A stretch of 55,014 nt of DNA, taken from positions 1 through 55,014 of the forward strand of contig JAMWZR010000017.1 of assembly GCA_024282035.1 (NCBI GenBank). The letters are read 5' to 3'. This stretch comes from Nitrosomonas sp. (GTDB lineage Bacteria; Pseudomonadota; Gammaproteobacteria; Burkholderiales; Nitrosomonadaceae). Under the pieces are notes generated by a model. The model was not told the DNA's origin, made no database searches, and was given only the letters and a program-made list of their open reading frames with translations. How positions within the stretch are numbered: the first letter of the stretch is position 1; each line of letters starts with the position of its first letter. Positions 28,878 to 37,715 of this stretch are shown in pieces. Made by a program: the position numbers and the translations under genes.

Positions 28878-31800
28878 ATGATGCCCACGGGTCATTCCGC
28901 TTCATTTCTTCGCTACCTGTTTCAGATTCTGGGATTGGCCGCATTATATTTCACCTTTGGTTACATGAGCTTCCTGACCACAGTGACGCACTACATCGTT
29001 ACGCCAGTTTTTTTTGTTGCAGAAGGCATTGCGTTGGCTGCCATCATTCTGCTAGGTGCAAGAGTCTGGCCAGGTATTTTCCTGGGACAACTAGCTCTCG
29101 CGCTGAGTACCGGGCTGGAACTCATACCCTCAACTGTCATTGCCAGCATCAACAGCCTTGAAGCGCTTATCGGCTTCACATTGTTCAAGTACTGGAAGAT
29201 CAACCCTTTATTTCATAAAGTACGCGATCTGACACGCTTGTTCGTGATGATATTTTTTATACTCCAGCCTTTCAGCGCCACATTGGGAACGCTGACACTG
29301 ATGTTTTTTGATGCCATCCGGGAATCCCAGCATTATCTACAGGCTTGGACATACTGGTGGTTCGGCAATTGTCTGGGACAATTTCTGATCACACCATTCA
29401 TGCTGATCGCCTTTTCTTTGTCTGATCGACTCGAAACGATCAAGCAATCGGCACAAGCTTCGATCATTCCGATCATTCTGATTCTGCCCGCCACCTGGCT
29501 AATCTTTGACAACACCGTTTTCAGCACCACCACGCAGGCACTGGTCGTTTATGCTCCACTTCTGATCTGGATTGCTATCAGGAGCGGAACCATCATCGTT
29601 TCTTTCATCTGCAGCGGCATCACGTTCTTGTCACTGTACCAAACGTCGCATGGCGCGGGTCCGTTCGTCGTGGATGGCACGCCGAACATCTTCGACATGA
29701 ATATCTTCGTCCTGGGTATCTCGCTAACCGCTCAGTTTGTCAGCGTATTATTCACCGAACGTAAACTGATCGAAGCGGAATTGCGAAACAATGAAACGCG
29801 ATTATATGCCATCATCGAATCCTCATCGATTCCCAAAGCCATTAATGATGAGCAAGGACGGATCACCTATCTGAACAAGGCATTTACGCAAACCTTTGGT
29901 TACACGCTGGCTGACATTCCCACCCTGACCGAATGGTGGCCCAAAGCCTATCCTGACAAACAATATCGTCGCTGGATCAGAAATATCTGGAACAAGAATT
30001 TAAAAAAAGCCCTACACGACCGAACCGACTTTGAACCCATCGACCTCACCGTTCACTGCTTAAATGGATCCCGGCGCAATGTCATTGCCACCGCCACGAC
30101 GTTGGATTCTCCAGGATTCCATCACCACCATCTGGTAACATTGGTCGACATCACGGTACGCAAGCACTTGGAAAATCAGCTTTTCCAAAGTCACAAGTTT
30201 CTCGAAGATCTGTCCAATAATATCCCGGGGTTCATTTATCAATTCCAGCTTTTCCCCGATGGCCGCAGCTGCATGCCTTTCGCCAGCAAAGGTATAACGG
30301 AAGTCATGGGCCTCGCGCCAGAAACACTTGTACTTGATGCCTCACCCTTACTGAATCTGACCCATCCCGATGACGCGGACAAACTCAATGCTTCCATCGC
30401 CGAATCAGCCTCATCTCTCAACGAGTGGCGCCATGAATTTCGCATCATTACCCCAAAAAAGGAAATCAAATGGATTCAGGGACAATCCAAACCAAACCGA
30501 CAGCCTGATGACAGCATCATCTGGAATGGTCATGCAACCGACATCACTGAATCCAAAAATACCTCGCTAAAATTTGAAACCATGCTGGACTTGGCAAGCG
30601 ACGGTATTCATATTCTGGATGAAAATGGCTTCGTCGTTCAGTTCAGTCGCTCTTTTGCCAACATGCTGGGTTACAGCTATGAAGAAACGGCACGTTTGAA
30701 CGTACTCGACTGGGATGCCCTCATCCCACAAAAAGACCTGATCAATGTGGCACGCGAAATCATCAACACGCCCCGTGTTTTCGAAACACGCCACAAACGC
30801 AAGGACGGCAGCATCTTTGATGTAGAAATCAATGCCAGAGGCATTGAAATTTCCGGCAAAAAATTCATTTATGCTTCCTCACGCGATATTACCAATCGCA
30901 AACTTCATGAACAGGAAATCGAATATCAGCGCATGCGCCTTGCCAACATTATTGAAGGCACTCATATCGGAACCTGGGAGTGGAATGTCCAAAGTGGAAC
31001 GGTCATATTTAACGAACGCTGGGCAGAAATGATCGGCTACAGCCTCGACGAGCTGACTCCCACTTCGATAGAAACCTGGATCCGTTTTGCGCACCCCGAA
31101 GATCTGAAACATTCCAATACACTGCTGAATGAACACTTCACCGGCAACATACCCTATTACGAATGTGAAGCCCGCATGCGCCATCGCGATGGACACTGGA
31201 TCTGGGTACTGGATCGCGGCAAAGTTCTGAGTTGGACCAACGATGGCAAACCCCTGATGATGTTTGGCACTCATCAGGACATTACCGAACGCAAGGAACG
31301 TGAAGTCATGCTAATCGAAGCCCGGCAGCAGGCCGAAACCGCCAATACGGCCAAGACCCGTTTTCTAGCCATGATGTCACATGAAATTCGCACACCGATG
31401 AATGCTGTACTGGGTATGGCTTATCTCCTCAGCAAGACGACACTGGATTCGCGTCAGAGCACGTATTTACGGAACATTGAGGGCTCCTCCAATATCCTGC
31501 TTGGCGTCATCAATGACATTCTGGACTATTCCAAAATCGAAGCCAACAAAATCGAACTCGACAGCATTGCTTTTGACTTGAACAGCAACCTGGAAAATAT
31601 CGCAGCGATCGCTGCCATTGCGGCCAAGGACAAGGCCATCGATGTGATGTTCCATGTCGAACCCAACGTACCGCGTTATTTGGTCGGCGATCCGGTCAGA
31701 CTAAGTCAGATACTCGTCAATCTGATCAATAACGCCATCAAGTTCACCGATCAGGGCGAAGTTATCGTACGCTTCGAGATCGTCGAAACAGATGAACCTC

Positions 31801-32897
31801 TCGCTGTTCTTCTGGCATTTAGCGTTCGCGATAGCGGCATTGGCATGTCTGCGGATCAGATGAAAAATCTTTTTCAAGCATTTTCGCAGGCCGATAGCTC
31901 GATTACCCGACGCTTTGGCGGCACGGGCCTCGGATTATCCATTTCTCATCGTCTGGCACAGCACATGCAAGGCAACATTGAAGTACAAAGTGAATTAGGC
32001 AAGGGCAGTACCTTCCGCTGTGTAGTAAAATTGAATCAGGGTGAATCCAATCAGAAAACCTGGGTACAAATACCCGGTCCATTGCAGTTTCTGCATGTCA
32101 TGATCGTCGACAGTCATGCCACCACTCGTCAGATCATGGTGGAAATAGTGCAGTCCCTTGGCTGGAAAGCCACCACCGTGGACAACGAACACCATGCCAT
32201 CGATAAACTCAACGATGCAAATGCTGCAAGAACCGATCTGTTGGTGTTGATGACAAGAGCTCAGAGCGAGCAGGACCTAGAAATACTGCAATTTCTGGAC
32301 TCGGCAATTCCAATTAACCTCAGTCCTAGAATTTTGCTGATCACCAACAACATGGATCCGATATTTGCCAAGCGCGTCAGCAACCGACAAGCCACCGCAA
32401 TATTGATCAGACCGTTCACCCCCCTCAATTTACTGGATACGGTGTCCAGCCTGTATACCGAGCACGATGACGTAGACACTCATCCGGATCACCTACACGA
32501 ATCCGCTAAAAAACAATTTGCCGGAACACGCATCCTGATTGCGGAAGATAACGAATTTAACCAATTGCTGATTTCCGAATTATTGAGTCACTGGGGCATC
32601 ACTGTCAGTATGGTACAAAATGGCGCCGAATGTCTGGAACAACTCAAAACGAGCCAACAACCTTTCGACCTGATTCTCATGGATATCCAGATGCCGGTGA
32701 TGAATGGTCTCGAAACCACGCAGCGCATTCGCCGGGAAATGAAAATGACCGGCATCCCGATTATTGCCCTGACCGCCAACGTCATGGAGCAGGATCAGAA
32801 AAAATTCCAGAAAGTGGGCATGGATTCCTTCCTGCCCAAACCCTTCGACCCGGAACAGATCTATCACATCTTGCAGCAGTTTATCAAAGGCCGGTAA
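28878..32897 (+). CDS. Membrane hybrid histidine kinase (MASE1-PAS4-HisKA-HATPase-REC2)
   Basis: A 1339-residue sensor kinase. Residues about 10-300 form a MASE1-type membrane sensor with about eight helices. Four PAS domains follow (begin near YAIIESSSIPKAINDE, FLEDLSNNIPGFIYQF, TMLDLASDGIHILDEN and LANIIEGTHIGTWEWN). HisKA has the phosphorylated His835 in MMSHEIRTPMN, and HATPase has the N box (ILVNLINNAIKF), DSGIGM and FGGTGLGLSIS. The first receiver (about 1070-1190) is degenerate, as the place of the phosphoacceptor reads LLVLMTRAQ. The second is intact, with EDNEFN and Asp1269 in LILMDIQMP, and a C-terminal KPF. There is no HPt domain, so a separate HPt protein is needed. The ligand is unknown. 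Confidence 0.93.
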   Translation: MMPTGHSASFLRYLFQILGLAALYFTFGYMSFLTTVTHYIVTPVFFVAEGIALAAIILLGARVWPGIFLGQLALALSTGLELIPSTVIASINSLEALIGFTLFKYWKINPLFHKVRDLTRLFVMIFFILQPFSATLGTLTLMFFDAIRESQHYLQAWTYWWFGNCLGQFLITPFMLIAFSLSDRLETIKQSAQASIIPIILILPATWLIFDNTVFSTTTQALVVYAPLLIWIAIRSGTIIVSFICSGITFLSLYQTSHGAGPFVVDGTPNIFDMNIFVLGISLTAQFVSVLFTERKLIEAELRNNETRLYAIIESSSIPKAINDEQGRITYLNKAFTQTFGYTLADIPTLTEWWPKAYPDKQYRRWIRNIWNKNLKKALHDRTDFEPIDLTVHCLNGSRRNVIATATTLDSPGFHHHHLVTLVDITVRKHLENQLFQSHKFLEDLSNNIPGFIYQFQLFPDGRSCMPFASKGITEVMGLAPETLVLDASPLLNLTHPDDADKLNASIAESASSLNEWRHEFRIITPKKEIKWIQGQSKPNRQPDDSIIWNGHATDITESKNTSLKFETMLDLASDGIHILDENGFVVQFSRSFANMLGYSYEETARLNVLDWDALIPQKDLINVAREIINTPRVFETRHKRKDGSIFDVEINARGIEISGKKFIYASSRDITNRKLHEQEIEYQRMRLANIIEGTHIGTWEWNVQSGTVIFNERWAEMIGYSLDELTPTSIETWIRFAHPEDLKHSNTLLNEHFTGNIPYYECEARMRHRDGHWIWVLDRGKVLSWTNDGKPLMMFGTHQDITERKEREVMLIEARQQAETANTAKTRFLAMMSHEIRTPMNAVLGMAYLLSKTTLDSRQSTYLRNIEGSSNILLGVINDILDYSKIEANKIELDSIAFDLNSNLENIAAIAAIAAKDKAIDVMFHVEPNVPRYLVGDPVRLSQILVNLINNAIKFTDQGEVIVRFEIVETDEPLAVLLAFSVRDSGIGMSADQMKNLFQAFSQADSSITRRFGGTGLGLSISHRLAQHMQGNIEVQSELGKGSTFRCVVKLNQGESNQKTWVQIPGPLQFLHVMIVDSHATTRQIMVEIVQSLGWKATTVDNEHHAIDKLNDANAARTDLLVLMTRAQSEQDLEILQFLDSAIPINLSPRILLITNNMDPIFAKRVSNRQATAILIRPFTPLNLLDTVSSLYTEHDDVDTHPDHLHESAKKQFAGTRILIAEDNEFNQLLISELLSHWGITVSMVQNGAECLEQLKTSQQPFDLILMDIQMPVMNGLETTQRIRREMKMTGIPIIALTANVMEQDQKKFQKVGMDSFLPKPFDPEQIYHILQQFIKGR

Positions 32898-32981: not shown

Positions 32982-33026
32982 TGGCACCCTGAACACGAAT
33001 CGAACGTGCGACCTACCCCTTAGGAG
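32982..33026. repeat. Distal attachment site (att) of the tRNA island
   Basis: 45 bases identical to the tRNA-Arg 3' half (from TGGCACCCTG to CCCCTTAGGAG). It matches the tRNA from the anticodon-loop edge to the encoded CCA. The left flank (ctggc versus ttggc) and the right flank (tcgcc versus ggggt) diverge at once, so the boundaries are sharp. Confidence 0.95.
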
Positions 33027-33430
33027 TCGCCTTTAGTCTCAACAATCCAAACAGTAACTAATTAAATTATAACACTTTCAAGCATTATTATTTACTAAGA
33101 TATATAAACATATACTACAACTGTACCGAAAATGTACTGACAAAAATTAGGGTGACAGATTAAAGAGAAGGGTAGCAGGGGGGACATACCCCTCCCTTAT
33201 CTTAATTGCACTCGGTAAAAATAATTTCTCCAGAAAATGTTGAAGGTCGGGGATGTTGTAAAACTGTATATATAGTATAGCTAAGAAGCTAGACTCAAAG
33301 AAAAACTCTAGTATTTTGTGCTAATGTTTTAGCTTAATTACACGTTAATTTCCAAAATAACTGAACTTTAAAGCTTTGTGAAAATGAACAATCTTCTCTT
33401 TGTCTAATTATATTGACACAATTTAAATAA
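33027..33430. other. AT-rich non-coding end of the island
   Basis: 404 bases without a supported gene. It contains a copy of the arm-site-like repeat (33122-33137), a hairpin AGGGG-GGACAT-ACCCCT type at about 33176-33193, and long A/T runs. It probably serves recombination and transcript ends. Confidence 0.5.
33122..33137. repeat. Putative integrase arm-site repeat, distal copy
   Basis: TGTACCGAAAATGTAC, identical to 37574-37589 at the other end of the island. It includes TGTACCGA/TGTACTGA half-sites spaced by 11 bases. The location near both attachment ends, next to the integrase promoter on one side, fits arm-type sites of tyrosine integrases; this is inference. Confidence 0.6.
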
Positions 33431-33964
33431 CTAAAATAATCTCTCATTTTGTTTAGCACACTTCCCAGTTGACTCGAAATCTGGCAATTCATGACCCGGA
33501 GAATATTTCAATTCTTTATATAATCCCGTAAACCGATCAATAGTTAAGGTGGTTCGCATGTGTGATTCTCTGTCATTTACAAATTCAAAGTATATTGCAC
33601 TATCTTTTACTAAAATTTTACCAACCCAACCCATTTGATTTGGTTCATTTGGTATGTCGTTTATAAAAAAATCGGTTCCGTTACTATTAAATGATAGTTT
33701 ATTGTCAATATACTTAAAAACCAATAATGGTCTTTTAGAACTAGTATTGCGTTCATTTAACCACTCCCGAACTGTCGGATTCAACGCCTCTGTTATTCTT
33801 ACAAATTCAAGATTAATTTCTACACAAACCAAAACAAGATTAGTTGATAGTTGATGGGTCGATTGCGCCCAACCACTACTAGTTAATAAAATCAAAATGA
33901 ATGTCATTAAAGTTTTACTTTTTATTCCCCCACTACTTCTATGACACACAATTTTTTTATTCAT
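33431..33964 (-). CDS. Exported island protein of unknown function
   Basis: A 177-residue protein with a signal peptide: basic start (MNKKIVCHRSSGGIKSK), hydrophobic TLMTFILILLTSSGWAQ, cleavage probably after WAQ. The mature part has two Cys (CVEINLEF near the N-terminus and GKCAKQ at the end) that could pair, and a beta-rich core (LVFKYIDNKLSFN; GKILVKDSAIYFEFV; TTLTIDRFTGLYKEL). The last of these resembles small lipocalin-like or lysozyme-inhibitor-like beta proteins, but no family is recognised. A TTG two codons upstream is an alternative start (GGAG lies 5 bases before TTG, 11 before ATG). Confidence 0.65.
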   Translation of the reverse strand: MNKKIVCHRSSGGIKSKTLMTFILILLTSSGWAQSTHQLSTNLVLVCVEINLEFVRITEALNPTVREWLNERNTSSKRPLLVFKYIDNKLSFNSNGTDFFINDIPNEPNQMGWVGKILVKDSAIYFEFVNDRESHMRTTLTIDRFTGLYKELKYSPGHELPDFESTGKCAKQNERLF

Positions 33965-34179
33965 ACACAAACAGACTCCACAGTAGAAGAGAATTAATAA
34001 AGACTACAAAACTGTAATGGTTCCTCATAATCTCTGTATAAAGCTTAGGTAAAAAAAGATTTTAAAAACAAATACAGATGCTTTATTTAATTTTTTCCTC
34101 TAATACAAAAAAACTTTAACAACTTATAACCCGTCACGGTTACTTCTACCTGTTTTAAAGATAACCTCTTAGTAATGGA

Positions 34180-34197
34180 GGAGGACTGAAATCCTCC
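34180..34197. repeat. Short inverted repeat in island spacer
   Basis: GGAGGA (34180-34185) and TCCTCC (34192-34197) flank a 6-base loop, in the spacer between the polymerase-like gene and the secreted protein gene. It may be a weak terminator of the minus-strand transcript, though no T-run follows. The rest of 33965-34243 is AT-rich without a gene. Confidence 0.4.
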
Positions 34198-34243
34198 CGT
34201 TCTTAGAATATATAAGAAAGAGTAGTATAAATACGAACAAATG

Positions 34244-35518
34244 TTATTTAATTATTGGCTTAAAGTTTAACTTTTCTTGAAAGGTAGACTCCATGGTATT
34301 CCGAAGTTCTAACTCATATCTCTTTGCAACAATAAAACTATCGTGAACAGAAAGGCACACAATGCCTTTCTTTGTTAATCGATTAATAATATTCTCAGCC
34401 AACCAAGAATCTATATTCTGTAAATGTAATCCAAACCCTGGGTTAAAGAATGAATTGCTGATTGCTTCATGTTTCTTCTCTATTTTTAGTAGTAGGGATT
34501 GCGCATTCTTGATATGGAACTCACTTCTAATAGTATTGATAGCATGTTCTCTTGATTTGCAATTAAACAATACTAGAAATGCTTTCTTTACTTCTTTTCT
34601 ATCACAATCTGGAATGGTGTAAGGATCATCGGAAACACTTAGGCCTGTTAATGAATATGCAATGGTTGCATGAAAAGCAGAATAGTCCAATTCGCACACT
34701 TCTTCTCCGTTGATGCGTAACTTTAATCTATCCTCTTTAGGCATATTCATCCAGAAAGCACTGTAGAAACGACCACCACCACTTTCACCATTAAAAATAC
34801 GTTTTACAGTAATGTTAGTTGGATCATATTTATATCGAAGATCAATTCCATCTGTTCCTATATCAGTTTGTCTTAGTAAATTATTATATGCCTTGAGTCC
34901 ATCCCGCATCTGGATAGTAAATCTATCATCAATATAATCAACAATCCTCCCCCCTTCATCTTTCTTAATGATAGTTTCTTCTTCAGGAGCTTCGGGATCA
35001 CGCTCAATCTTTTTGATATCAAAGTTAAGTAAATCTAAAAGCTTCGAAGTAGCTTTTATCCTTGTTTGGCGGCTTTTACCATTTGAATTATGGTAATAAC
35101 TTGAATCTTCTACATATCCTAGAGAAATAAGATCAATCAGAACACTTTTGACCAAATCGTATTTTAGAAATATTTTTCTATATCGAGTGCCTTTTGAGTA
35201 ATCATTTCTATTTAAACTAATTCTTCGCCACGGTGATTTAGAATAATTTGCTGCTACCCATAAATCTAAAACGATAACATCAAGATGTTTCTTAACTCGC
35301 TCAGCTTTTCTTATTTGTCGATGATCTACCTTTCTTAATTGAGCCAACTCAGAATAAATCTCACCTAGCTGTTTATTCATTGGAGGAAAATCTGTTTTTC
35401 TGTGAACCTGAAGGGGAATAGCTTTTTCTAAAACATCTTTTATTGCTTTTGCTTCACCATCTTCACGATTGAAATGTAGATGCACTTGACTTGGAAGTTC
35501 CATTCGATCAGCTAACAC
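34244..35518 (-). CDS. Compact family A DNA polymerase-like protein of the island
   Basis: A 424-residue protein with no signal peptide. I read its C-terminal half as a reduced family A polymerase palm. Motif A-like ELDYSAFHATIAYSLTG (277-292) has Asp278. Motif B-like DRKEVKKAFLVLFN (306-319) has Arg307 and Lys311 at the R-x3-K spacing, but Leu and Asn where Taq polymerase has Phe667 and Tyr671. A Q-helix LHLQNIDSWL (364-373, Gln367) precedes motif C-like SVHDSFIV (390-397), with Asp393. Before motif A, GGGRFYSAFW (247-256) is also conserved-looking. The N-terminal 200 residues are helical and charged and may bind DNA. No exonuclease domain is present. The start is GTG at 35518 or ATG at 35503; neither has a clear ribosome site. 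Role in element replication or repair is inference. Confidence 0.6.
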   Translation of the reverse strand: MLADRMELPSQVHLHFNREDGEAKAIKDVLEKAIPLQVHRKTDFPPMNKQLGEIYSELAQLRKVDHRQIRKAERVKKHLDVIVLDLWVAANYSKSPWRRISLNRNDYSKGTRYRKIFLKYDLVKSVLIDLISLGYVEDSSYYHNSNGKSRQTRIKATSKLLDLLNFDIKKIERDPEAPEEETIIKKDEGGRIVDYIDDRFTIQMRDGLKAYNNLLRQTDIGTDGIDLRYKYDPTNITVKRIFNGESGGGRFYSAFWMNMPKEDRLKLRINGEEVCELDYSAFHATIAYSLTGLSVSDDPYTIPDCDRKEVKKAFLVLFNCKSREHAINTIRSEFHIKNAQSLLLKIEKKHEAISNSFFNPGFGLHLQNIDSWLAENIINRLTKKGIVCLSVHDSFIVAKRYELELRNTMESTFQEKLNFKPIIK

Positions 35519-35701: not shown

Positions 35702-36391
35702 TTAATTACAGATAATGGGTAGTATAGCCTCCTTATCGATCTCCATATCGATCTGCCTCCATTCCGTGGGAGTATTAGTAGAACGAGAAACTAAAATTTC
35801 CCCTGTAGCCATTGGACCTGAGTGAGCAGTCTCGACAAGAAATCTTTTTTTTAATCCTTTGCAGTCATATTCTATTTGGTTTCTTACAGAAAGTGCCCCA
35901 TAGTTCCTGTAGGTGTAATTATACAAAAACCATAGGGTTACAAAGCTCCCTCTCTTACGAGAAGTCACCGAATCAACAAATACTTTCATATCACCTGTAC
36001 TCAGTACTTGCTTCCATTCGTGACATGCTAGATTAAACGTAAATTTTATTGTTGAGTTAGGTAGAATTGGATCCCATTGGGTGGGTTGAGAATATATTGA
36101 AAAAGATTTTCCCGATTGCATATTGCCAGTATAGGCTAAAGCAGCAAGAAATCTTACTTTCTCGTCTTTGCAGTCATATTCAATATGTGCAGCTATAGAT
36201 AGAGCATTTGATCCATTATTTAATTGTTTTGTGTCATCAGTTAATTGCCACACAGATACGAATTTTCCGTTTTTTTGAATTGTCGAGTGATCGATAAATA
36301 GATTTTTCCCATTGGTTACACCAATATTCGACCATTCAGCTCGAGCCGGAATTATAAAAAAGCACAAGGCAGCAATTACAATTTTTTTCAT
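35702..36391 (-). CDS. Exported protein with two tandem surface-adhesin E-like domains
   Basis: A 229-residue protein with a signal peptide (MKKIVIAALCFFIIPARA). It contains two homologous units of about 105 residues, W20-C123 and W126-C228. Each runs W..(I/V)...-G-..FVD...-W.L..-EYDC-K..(R)F.....-G-(M)..G-...-W-...-C; the EYDC cores are at 71-74 and 174-177. The pattern matches, from memory, the surface-adhesin protein E family (Pfam Adhesin_E). I chose ATG at 36391 because it begins the signal peptide; a GTG five codons upstream is also in frame. It lies just downstream of the integrase in the island. An adhesive or surface role is inferred from the family name only. Confidence 0.75.
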   Translation of the reverse strand: MKKIVIAALCFFIIPARAEWSNIGVTNGKNLFIDHSTIQKNGKFVSVWQLTDDTKQLNNGSNALSIAAHIEYDCKDEKVRFLAALAYTGNMQSGKSFSIYSQPTQWDPILPNSTIKFTFNLACHEWKQVLSTGDMKVFVDSVTSRKRGSFVTLWFLYNYTYRNYGALSVRNQIEYDCKGLKKRFLVETAHSGPMATGEILVSRSTNTPTEWRQIDMEIDKEAILPIICN

Positions 36392-36554
36392 AATTGAATC
36401 GTTCACAGATACTTAATACCTATCTTGATACATTGCTTTTGCGAAAGAGATAAGAATCAAAATATTTTTTCAGCAAAAAAACTATTACGATTGATAAATA
36501 TGAGCTTTCCACAATCAAAATATGTGTATGTTTAAAGTGACCGTCTTTTAGAGA

Positions 36555-37556
36555 TTAACCCCAAGTATTCATTTTAGTTACAATATTCTCTGTTTTTAAA
36601 TGAGTATATCTCTTTAATTGTTGAAGCGTCTTGTGTCCGCTGATATGGGCTGTTTCGATGACATTAAATCCTTTTTCAAAGAATCTTGAACAAGCTTCAT
36701 GTCTGAGATCGTGAAATCTTAAATCTTGTATTGTCGTTTTCTTCAGCATTCTACGCCATGTATATTCGAAGCTGTCTGCTCGCTTCCATTTCTAGAATAC
36801 TTTTGGAGTATCAATTTGCCTCGGAATAGCCTGCATTGTTTTAATCGCCTTTTTAGAAAGTGGTACTGCTCTTGATTCACCATTCTTTGTCATGGGCAAC
36901 AAAGCAATTTGTTTCTTTAAATCAATATTGTCCCATTCAAGAGAAAGTAACTCACCGAGCCGCATTCCAGTTTCAATTGCCAATGTAATGATAGGAGCAA
37001 GTAGAGGGGACTTACTATTTCTGGCTGCTTGCAAAAGTATTTGTTCTTCGCCATCCGCAAGCCGTCTATCCCGTCCTCTTGCTTGCTTAGGTTTGCGCAC
37101 TAGCTTTGCAACATTATTTATGAGTGGAATACCCCAATCTTTAATAGATACATCAATTAGGTGTGATAGTGATCCAATTTCTTTTATAACCGTAGAGCCT
37201 TGTTTTCCTTCAGCTAGTCTTTTGTCTCGATAAGTGGCAATATGCTTACTTTGAAGTTGACTGGCTGTGTAATAACCAAAATGGTTTTTTAGAAACAGCA
37301 TTCGCTGTCTGTCATTTTTTGCCGATTTTTTTAATGGAGTAACTTCCTGAATATATCGATCAATTAATTCTCCGATTGTGGTTTTGTCTGCTTCGGTTCG
37401 ATCTACGAAAATACCTCGATCTATTTCAGATTCAAGTAGTCTTGCCCATTTCTGGGCATCTACTTTAGTTTTAAATGTCTTAATTTGTTGGGGAAATCCT
37501 TTTTTTCTGATTAAGACTTTAAATGTATTTGATTGGGTTTTGGTGATAGTAGCCAT
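36555..37556 (-). pseudogene. Tyrosine integrase interrupted by an in-frame amber codon
   Basis: A phage-type tyrosine recombinase of 333 codons, one of which is a stop. ATG at 37556 has a GAGGT ribosome site. The first 254 codons end at TAG (36792-36794, codon 255), and the same frame continues without further stop to TAA at 36555. Catalytic residues are all encoded: Arg199 (TGMRLGELL), Lys224 (MTKNGE), then beyond the stop His282/Arg285 (FHDLRHEA), His308 (ISGHKTL) and Tyr317 (LKRYTHL). The truncated product would lack the nucleophile and be inactive unless the amber codon is suppressed. No other mutation is seen, so the lesion is recent or a sequencing error. Confidence 0.88.
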
Positions 37557-37573
37557 TTATACCTCATTCTTAG

Positions 37574-37589
37574 TGTACCGAAAATGTAC
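37574..37589. repeat. Putative integrase arm-site repeat, proximal copy
   Basis: TGTACCGAAAATGTAC continuing as CGA, so two TGTACCGA half-sites 11 bases apart. It lies between the integrase start and the tRNA. Identical over 16 bases to the copy at the far end. Confidence 0.6.
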
Positions 37590-37639
37590 CGAATGGGTAT
37601 TCAGTGGATAGAAAGCAGGAGCTAAGTTGATGATTCTAT

Positions 37640-37684
37640 TGGCACCCTGAACACGAATCGAACGTGCGACCTACCCCTTAGGAG
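37640..37684. repeat. Proximal attachment site inside tRNA-Arg
   Basis: The 45-bp direct repeat copy that forms the functional 3' part of the tRNA. It ends at tRNA position 32, the first base of the anticodon loop, a typical crossover point for tyrosine integrases. Confidence 0.95.
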
Positions 37685-37715
37685 GGGGTTGCTCTATCCA
37701 CTGAGCTACCAGGGC
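37640..37715 (-). tRNA. tRNA-Arg (anticodon CCU)
   Basis: A 76-base cloverleaf: acceptor GCCCTGG pairs with TCAGGGT, D stem GCTC/GAGC, anticodon stem ACCCC/GGGGT with loop CTCCTAA (anticodon CCU at 37680-37682), T arm GCACG-TTCGATT-CGTGT, and encoded CCA. It decodes AGG. A -10-like TAAAAT lies about ten bases upstream. The 3' half is restored by the inserted element. Confidence 0.97.

Follow-up and report, generated by a model that had tools for sequence, protein, structure and literature searches.

A TV-Pol/divPolA2-type polymerase homologue in a small tRNA-Arg-integrated island of Nitrosomonas sp.

Two groups of published proteins stand closest to the one described here. The TV-Pols (Iyer, Abhiman and Aravind 2008, PMC2579912) are family A polymerases of 400–600 amino acids (aa) that have no nuclease, keep the two palm Asp residues together with a hairpin Arg, a fingers Asp and an RxxxK motif, and are carried by mobile elements with a lambda-type integrase or a resolvase, a subset of them having an extra N-terminal domain. 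The divPolA2 proteins of phages (Virol J 2024, PMC11348598) are described, in the available part of that paper, as having an active-looking palm, no exonuclease and an unusual N-terminal domain that is unlike polymerase thumbs and without known relatives, with possible roles in repair or as RNA polymerases. The 55,014-nucleotide stretch of Nitrosomonas sp. analysed here (assembly GCA_024282035.1, contig JAMWZR010000017.1, positions 1 to 55,014; hereafter the window, from genome G000) carries an island integrated at tRNA-Arg(CCT) which encodes a 424-aa protein resembling both groups in these respects. There is very little doubt that it is a family A-type palm protein of the TV-Pol/divPolA2 kind. 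That it acts as the primase-polymerase of its small mobile element is given a slightly better than even chance. The fold and the kind of protein are ordinary and the family is already in print, as divPolA2 by sequence and as TV-Pol by features; what is new is the anatomy, a minimal element without a visible helicase, with a likely DNA-binding N-terminal domain and a constrained block of DNA behind the gene. No earlier description of these islands was found among the titles and abstract openings listed, a coverage that leaves out most subscription journals.

The gene and the parts of its product are the following.

34244..35518, minus strand: TV-Pol/divPolA2-type family A polymerase homologue, 424 aa (open reading frame, ORF; phrog_4756, expectation value (E) 1.6e-57; AlphaFold model and fold matches)
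35003..35371, minus strand: probable winged-helix N-terminal domain, residues about 50–172, moderate confidence
34247..35002, minus strand: palm and fingers core, residues 173–424
34685–34687, minus strand: D278 codon
34340–34342, minus strand: D393 codon

The ORF runs from 35518 to 34244 on the minus strand, with a GTG start that is uncertain by a few codons; translation of the same coordinates on the plus strand is full of stops. The gene is present as a single copy in its own genome. The match to phrog_4756, which is annotated as 'unknown function', covers residues 51–414, while no usable match was found in Pfam, NCBIfam or PADLOC, and no nuclease domain in Pfam or NCBIfam. A match to NLRX1_C (E 0.028) was taken as chance. 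None of the 30 members of profile A1 matches Pfam DNA_pol_A (PF00476) at E up to 0.1, and the same profile found nothing convincing among Protein Data Bank chains, the best being ribosomal protein eS19 at E 0.21. By sequence, the protein is a member of divPolA2, though outside a phage: the phage representative AUR84708 falls in phrog_4756 (E 1.8e-91) and scores 111 bits with the profile of 30 bacterial rows. Its features suggest that it would also be counted as a TV-Pol; profile A1 matched nothing in Ma-LMM01, which is named as carrying a TV-Pol, in a search that had no positive control. TV-Pol is mentioned once in the main text of the divPolA2 paper, in the Background, with no link seen drawn in the available text (PMC11348598). 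The two literatures may name one protein family differently, and the element ties both together.

Conservation was counted over 30 aligned rows, window included, which were obtained from one ORF for each of 33 loci after L014 (marginal, without motif C), L035 (truncated) and L038 (an ordinary DNA polymerase I (Pol I)-like protein) were dropped. The choice of ORF favoured frames with a GR or HD string, and all 33 loci still yielded one; L025 (one in-frame stop), the fragment or second-piece loci L007, L008, L013 and L040–L043, and the later-found copy in genome G766 are outside the count. R250, R264, D278, Y300, K311, H392 and D393 are present in all 30 rows, R307 in 29 with one gap, and the fingers Asp, D298, in 27 (Glu in two, Ala in one). 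An earlier note on this DNA had described a compact family A polymerase-like protein in a tRNA-integrated island, which agrees with the predicted structure, the residue conservation, the attachment (att) repeat and the empty site. The motifs it named were all found, as GGGRFY (R250), ELDYSAFHATIAYSLTG (D278), R307-x3-K311, Q367 and VHDSFIV (H392, D393), although the Gln of the Q-helix, present in the window protein, is not invariant (Q in 19 rows, M in 10, H in one). The lack of a palm, or of conservation at Asp278 and Asp393, was to have told against that assignment; a palm is predicted, and both residues are invariant.

In the model, the palm is preceded by a hairpin with strands at 239–243 and 248–252, the latter containing R250, and this in turn by one helix (199–217) in low-confidence surroundings, where the TV-Pol feature is a two-helix coiled-coil thumb. 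The replication protein of Zamilon virus, a Sputnik-like virophage, is a weak structural match (E 5.3e-3). A profile alignment to Pol I spans 198 columns and lines up the hairpin Arg, motif A, R-x3-K and motif C, weakly (E 0.021, one comparison); a first profile had reached the motif A region only (E 0.07). Among the fold matches listed, the only rows to reach residues 17–172 had a root mean square deviation of about 9–11, and for this reason the N-terminal domain was modelled separately. That model resembles, with moderate confidence, a winged helix and not the N-terminal domain of RNA polymerases; the TV-Pol N-terminal domain was, in contrast, predicted to be all-helical (PMC2579912).

The fold search with the predicted structure has mitochondrial and T7 RNA polymerases among its best matches, tied with Pol I, which raises the possibility that the protein is a single-subunit RNA polymerase of this type that transcribes the element. 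The residue after HD in motif C is invariably Glu in ten Pol I rows and is S in 17, A in 7, G in 5 and E in 1 of the 30 rows; motif C of T7 RNA polymerase reads HDS, to which 29 of the 30 rows are thus similar. The position five after the motif A Asp, the sugar gate in Pol I, is likewise an invariant Glu in the ten Pol I rows and is never Glu in the 30 (H 16, F 5, G 4, Y 3, M 1, N 1). These two differences, the tied fold matches and the fact that the divPolA2 authors raise the same option (PMC11348598, available text) all count in favour of an RNA polymerase. On the other side, the winged-helix-like model is unlike the RNA polymerase N-terminal domain, and AUR84708, which keeps both Asp with Phe in place of His392, has Glu at both Pol I-type positions (two other phage homologues have the motif C His and read HDS). 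In addition, CCPol, which was grouped with the TV-Pols in 2008, strongly prefers deoxynucleoside triphosphates, as stated in the available text of its description (PMC7581432). An RNA polymerase is regarded as unlikely.

The island in which the gene lies has the following features.

37640..37715, minus strand: tRNA-Arg(CCT), integration target (tRNA prediction, Rfam)
37640..37684, unstranded: att repeat inside the tRNA-Arg(CCT) 3' end (45-bp exact repeat)
32982..33026, unstranded: distal att repeat, an exact 45-bp copy of the tRNA 3' end
36792..37556, minus strand: tyrosine integrase, first part, ending at an in-frame TAG
36555..36749, minus strand: tyrosine integrase, C-terminal part (HDLRH ... 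Y region), separate ORF (PF00589, E 8.3e-10)
35702..36406, minus strand: cargo, 234-aa ORF for a probably exported protein with a pair of Adhesin_E (PF16747) domains
33431..33970, minus strand: cargo, 179-aa ORF, probably exported, weak phrog_19070 match (E 1.4e-5)
37574..37592, unstranded: TGTACCGAAAATGTACCGA, possible integrase arm-type site near one end (repeat family D5)
33122..33140, unstranded: TGTACCGAAAATGTACTGA, possible integrase arm-type site near the other end (repeat family D5)

The 4.66 kb bounded by the repeats has a GC content of 34.1%, the window being otherwise at 49.8%, and the main ORFs (the integrase in two pieces, the Adhesin_E protein, the polymerase and the 179-aa ORF) are all on the minus strand. 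As in a site-specific tRNA island, the tRNA 3' end is repeated distally, an integrase lies inside and a relative has an empty site. This site was seen in the near relative G298, one of 29 relative loci compared, the kinase-end flank of the other 28 not having aligned. Its parts are the kinase-end flank (90% over 1215 bp), an unaligned stretch of about 110 bp, one att copy and, at 94% over 460 bp, the flank with the tRNA and the transporter; nothing in it matches the element. The inner repeats TGTACCGAAAATGTAC at both ends look like integrase arm sites; a like pair is present in the element of G305 and was not seen in those of G280 and G303 by the same pattern. The integrase is split by an in-frame TAG at 36792–36794, where its counterparts in G280, G303 and G305 are unbroken proteins of 333–335 aa, and because of this stop the window element is probably immobile unless a related integrase acts in trans. 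An Rfam scan matched the tRNA alone.

That the element has no other replication gene, as had been proposed, is borne out by family scans for the five main ORFs that lie between the repeats. No helicase was seen in family scans of the window ORFs and of chosen sister ORFs, nor with a P-loop pattern across the sister islands, whereas some TV-Pols are fused to, or stand beside, D5 helicases (PMC2579912). The setting also differs from that of divPolA2, which, by the available text, phages carry in addition to a different main polymerase (PMC11348598); here the element is chromosomal and 4.7 kb long, its sole replication-like gene is the one for this protein, and there is no second polymerase among the main ORFs.

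Sister elements, with the same integrase (76–82% aa identity to the first integrase piece) and att at both ends, are present in G280, G303 and G305. Their polymerases are 66–77% identical to that of the window in G280 and G303 and about 35% in G305. The cargo is Adhesin_E in G000, G303 and G305, as also beside the G766 copy, Sel1 repeats in G280, and in G303 a DUF6602/NucC-like (PD-DExK) protein as well; a homologue of PDC-S59, a candidate defence protein, is near the G766 copy. The ratio of nonsynonymous to synonymous divergence (dN/dS) of the polymerase is 0.08–0.12 in four of six pairs of copies, with dS at 1.3–2.8, so that the value is rough, and in the remaining two pairs dS is beyond estimation. 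On this rough, sequence-based estimate the polymerase is under purifying selection. The fact that the cargo differs while the polymerase is under such selection suggests that integrase, att and polymerase form the core of the element; the other genes look like freight. The genome has two more Adhesin_E genes, on contig C15 among apparently chromosomal genes, and Adhesin_E is therefore not specific to the island.

Recombinases are also common beside the homologues. Within 5 kb of 31 loci there are 35 candidates, 20 of them matching PF00589 and 11 PF00239, as raw counts with no random-neighbourhood control. The Pfam counts were pooled over 23 candidates chosen as tyrosine type and 12 as serine type, and since those 12 were picked as serine type the 20 PF00589 matches would lie among the 23. 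A serine-recombinase match in L050 looks like a reverse-frame artefact of the iterative search, and the Pfam counts are safer. Such a neighbourhood had already been reported by Iyer et al. 2008 (PMC2579912).

Behind the polymerase gene there are two further features.

34161..34179, minus strand: conserved 19-bp block TCCATTACTAAGAGGTTAT, 64 bp past the polymerase stop; candidate for an origin or priming site
34179..34198, minus strand: GC-rich hairpin directly before the block

The block is 89–100% identical among five copies (G000, G303, G280, G766 and G278, the last being a gene end at a contig edge only), with the next 40 bp 25–40% and the preceding 40 bp 23–75% identical; in the gene itself, the four full copies have 0.61–0.76 synonymous differences per site. 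The hairpin is directly before it in G000, G303 and G278, weaker in G280 and not adjacent in G766. A scan of the 85 genus genomes at up to two mismatches gave 10 matches. The exact ones, in G000, G303, G766 and G278, are all in polymerase carriers; those with one mismatch are in G280, a carrier, and in G341, where no polymerase was found and the block is beside an IS110-like ORF; the four with two mismatches are all in non-carriers and are meaningless, because a reversed control pattern gave 21 matches, all grades together, at the same limit. The block is thus present in five of the eight genus carriers, and at the 19-bp length not in G305, G283 or the truncated G321. Its 12-bp core CATTACTAAGAG, with up to one mismatch, is found 70–255 bp behind the last codon in six of 31 homologue loci (G000, G303, G280, G766, G278 and G305); the remaining 25, G283 among them, do not show it. 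In mononucleotide shuffles of five of these regions it occurred at a rate of 0.004 per region.

The gene after the polymerase has the same direction in G000 and G303 and is convergent in G280, G305 and G766, so that a promoter role of the block for the next gene is unlikely. Promoter-like sites are no commoner than in shuffles (13 against 18.5 +/- 4.9). The hairpin and block are possibly a structured mRNA end; terminator-like sites number 8 against 2.6 +/- 1.6 in shuffles, all on the plus strand, and none is this hairpin. A candidate origin or priming site is the preferred reading, by analogy with CCPol-MP of the staphylococcal cassette chromosome mec (SCCmec), for which primase activity has been shown and the preferred priming site lies behind the helicase gene, according to the available text (eLife 2020, PMC7581432).

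Under the favoured reading, in which the option of a dedicated replicase or primase-polymerase from the earlier note is retained, the integrase would excise the island as a circle, as the att sites and the empty site suggest. The N-terminal winged helix may recognise the conserved block behind its own gene, and the family A palm would start and extend DNA there with little or no separate primase, as the family context and CCPol-MP of SCCmec would lead one to expect. The remaining steps would fall to host helicase and ligase. A stricter form, a one-protein replicon in which a winged-helix origin-binding domain, fused to a minimal family A polymerase, gives a protein that recognises the hairpin and 19-bp block behind its own gene, primes there and copies the excised element, is put forward only tentatively. 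If true, a single protein would be Rep, primase and polymerase, and the islands would be to family A what pipolins are to family B.

On a par with the RNA polymerase in its low likelihood is a role other than that of replicase of the element, as a repair or gap-filling polymerase that aids recombination or integration or is active when a phage infects. Three observations would fit such a role: recombinases are often found nearby in bacteria, barbaviruses that carry a homologue have PolB too, and the neighbourhoods of the divPolA2 gene are variable (the last two from PMC11348598, available text). The constrained block about 65–250 bp behind the gene, and the lack of another replication gene among the main ORFs of the element, fit replication better. 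A defence or nucleic-acid-sensing protein built on the polymerase fold, for which the NucC-like/PD-DExK protein of the G303 island and the PDC-S59 homologue near the G766 copy might be cited, is considered very unlikely: the polymerase has no PADLOC match, the catalytic residues are kept, and it is the shared gene while the cargo varies. The least credible is a catalytically dead remnant in a decaying island, the lost catalysis of the earlier note, which has the in-frame stop in the integrase on its side; both Asp, R-x3-K and the hairpin Arg are kept, the window copy has no stop or motif loss, and the rough dN/dS across copies is about 0.1.

With its own genome counted each time, the polymerase has matches in 8 of the 85 genus genomes, in 8 of 399 at the level of the order, 5 of 274 in the class and 25 of 398 across the phylum, one of the last (L038) being the ordinary Pol I-like protein. 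A search of 121 relatives with phrog_4756 gave seven positives, one of them (L014) spurious. Among phage records 109 of 50,697 match (84 from Vibrio and 14 from Aeromonas phages), and among plasmid records 3 of 72,556; in a DNA-level phage search, the best 20 of 162 records match only the tRNA end of the query. Some Vibrio and Aeromonas phage records, such as OX241576 (19946–21217), hold two to three places matching the polymerase, and multiple places per phage are also stated in the available text on divPolA2 (PMC11348598). In the same genus, a truncated match at 68% on contig C268 of G321 corresponds to that on contig JAUXRH010000193.1 of a Nitrosomonas metagenome-assembled genome (MAG). In L002 (1625–3260, Nitrosomonas MAG) the polymerase frame is cut short at 184 residues, and a transposase-like ORF lies about 0.5 kb away. 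L046 (1381–3359, in G283) encodes a 503-aa distant homologue and has an integrase close to tRNA-Cys and tRNA-Gly; the other strand carries, some 0.3 kb away, a remnant 54% identical to window-type residues 26–84, which would represent two generations of such elements at one place. The homologue L072 (4854–5789) of the Thioclava plasmid pTElox9 adjoins a DNA methyltransferase, a DEAD/DEAH helicase-family gene and IS21.

Outside the distal att, a 1339-aa ORF like a multi-domain hybrid sensor kinase (window 28878–32897) ends just short of the repeat, and the transporter gene adjoining the tRNA has a second copy, 74% identical, at 2181–3329 of contig C84 in the same genome. Copies of the tRNA-Arg(CCT) att, 44–49 bp long and about 7 to 23 kb from the tRNA, are present in at least G315, G319, G279, G306, G293 and G332, in which the genus search did not find the polymerase; from these sequences, the tRNA looks like a genus-wide insertion hotspot. 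The host is probably an ammonia-oxidising bacterium.

Three described systems resemble the whole element. CCPol-MP of SCCmec (PMC7581432) and the PolA-SSB primases (PMC10061031) are likewise family A polymerases of mobile elements, but in the available texts they prime only with the help of a partner protein, and a helicase gene and large serine recombinases accompany them; in 2020 the authors of the CCPol work were aware of no further TV-Pol with biochemical characterisation (PMC7581432, available text). The tRNA and tmRNA islands moved by phages, such as I55 (PNAS 2025, PMC12595487), share, as far as the available text describes them, the tyrosine integrase, the direct repeats, the lack of genes for autonomous transfer and defence cargo, although the word polymerase is absent from the main text of that paper. 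Pipolins (PMC7385651, available text) have tRNA integration, tyrosine recombinases, att repeats, variable cargo and a polymerase of their own, which is the primer-independent piPolB of family B and not of family A. In 4.7 kb the element combines a single replication-like gene with a short, conserved signal in the DNA, and would make a very small test system for unaided priming and copying. By analogy, it may work like the TV-Pol primase-polymerases, or like a pipolin with a family A enzyme.
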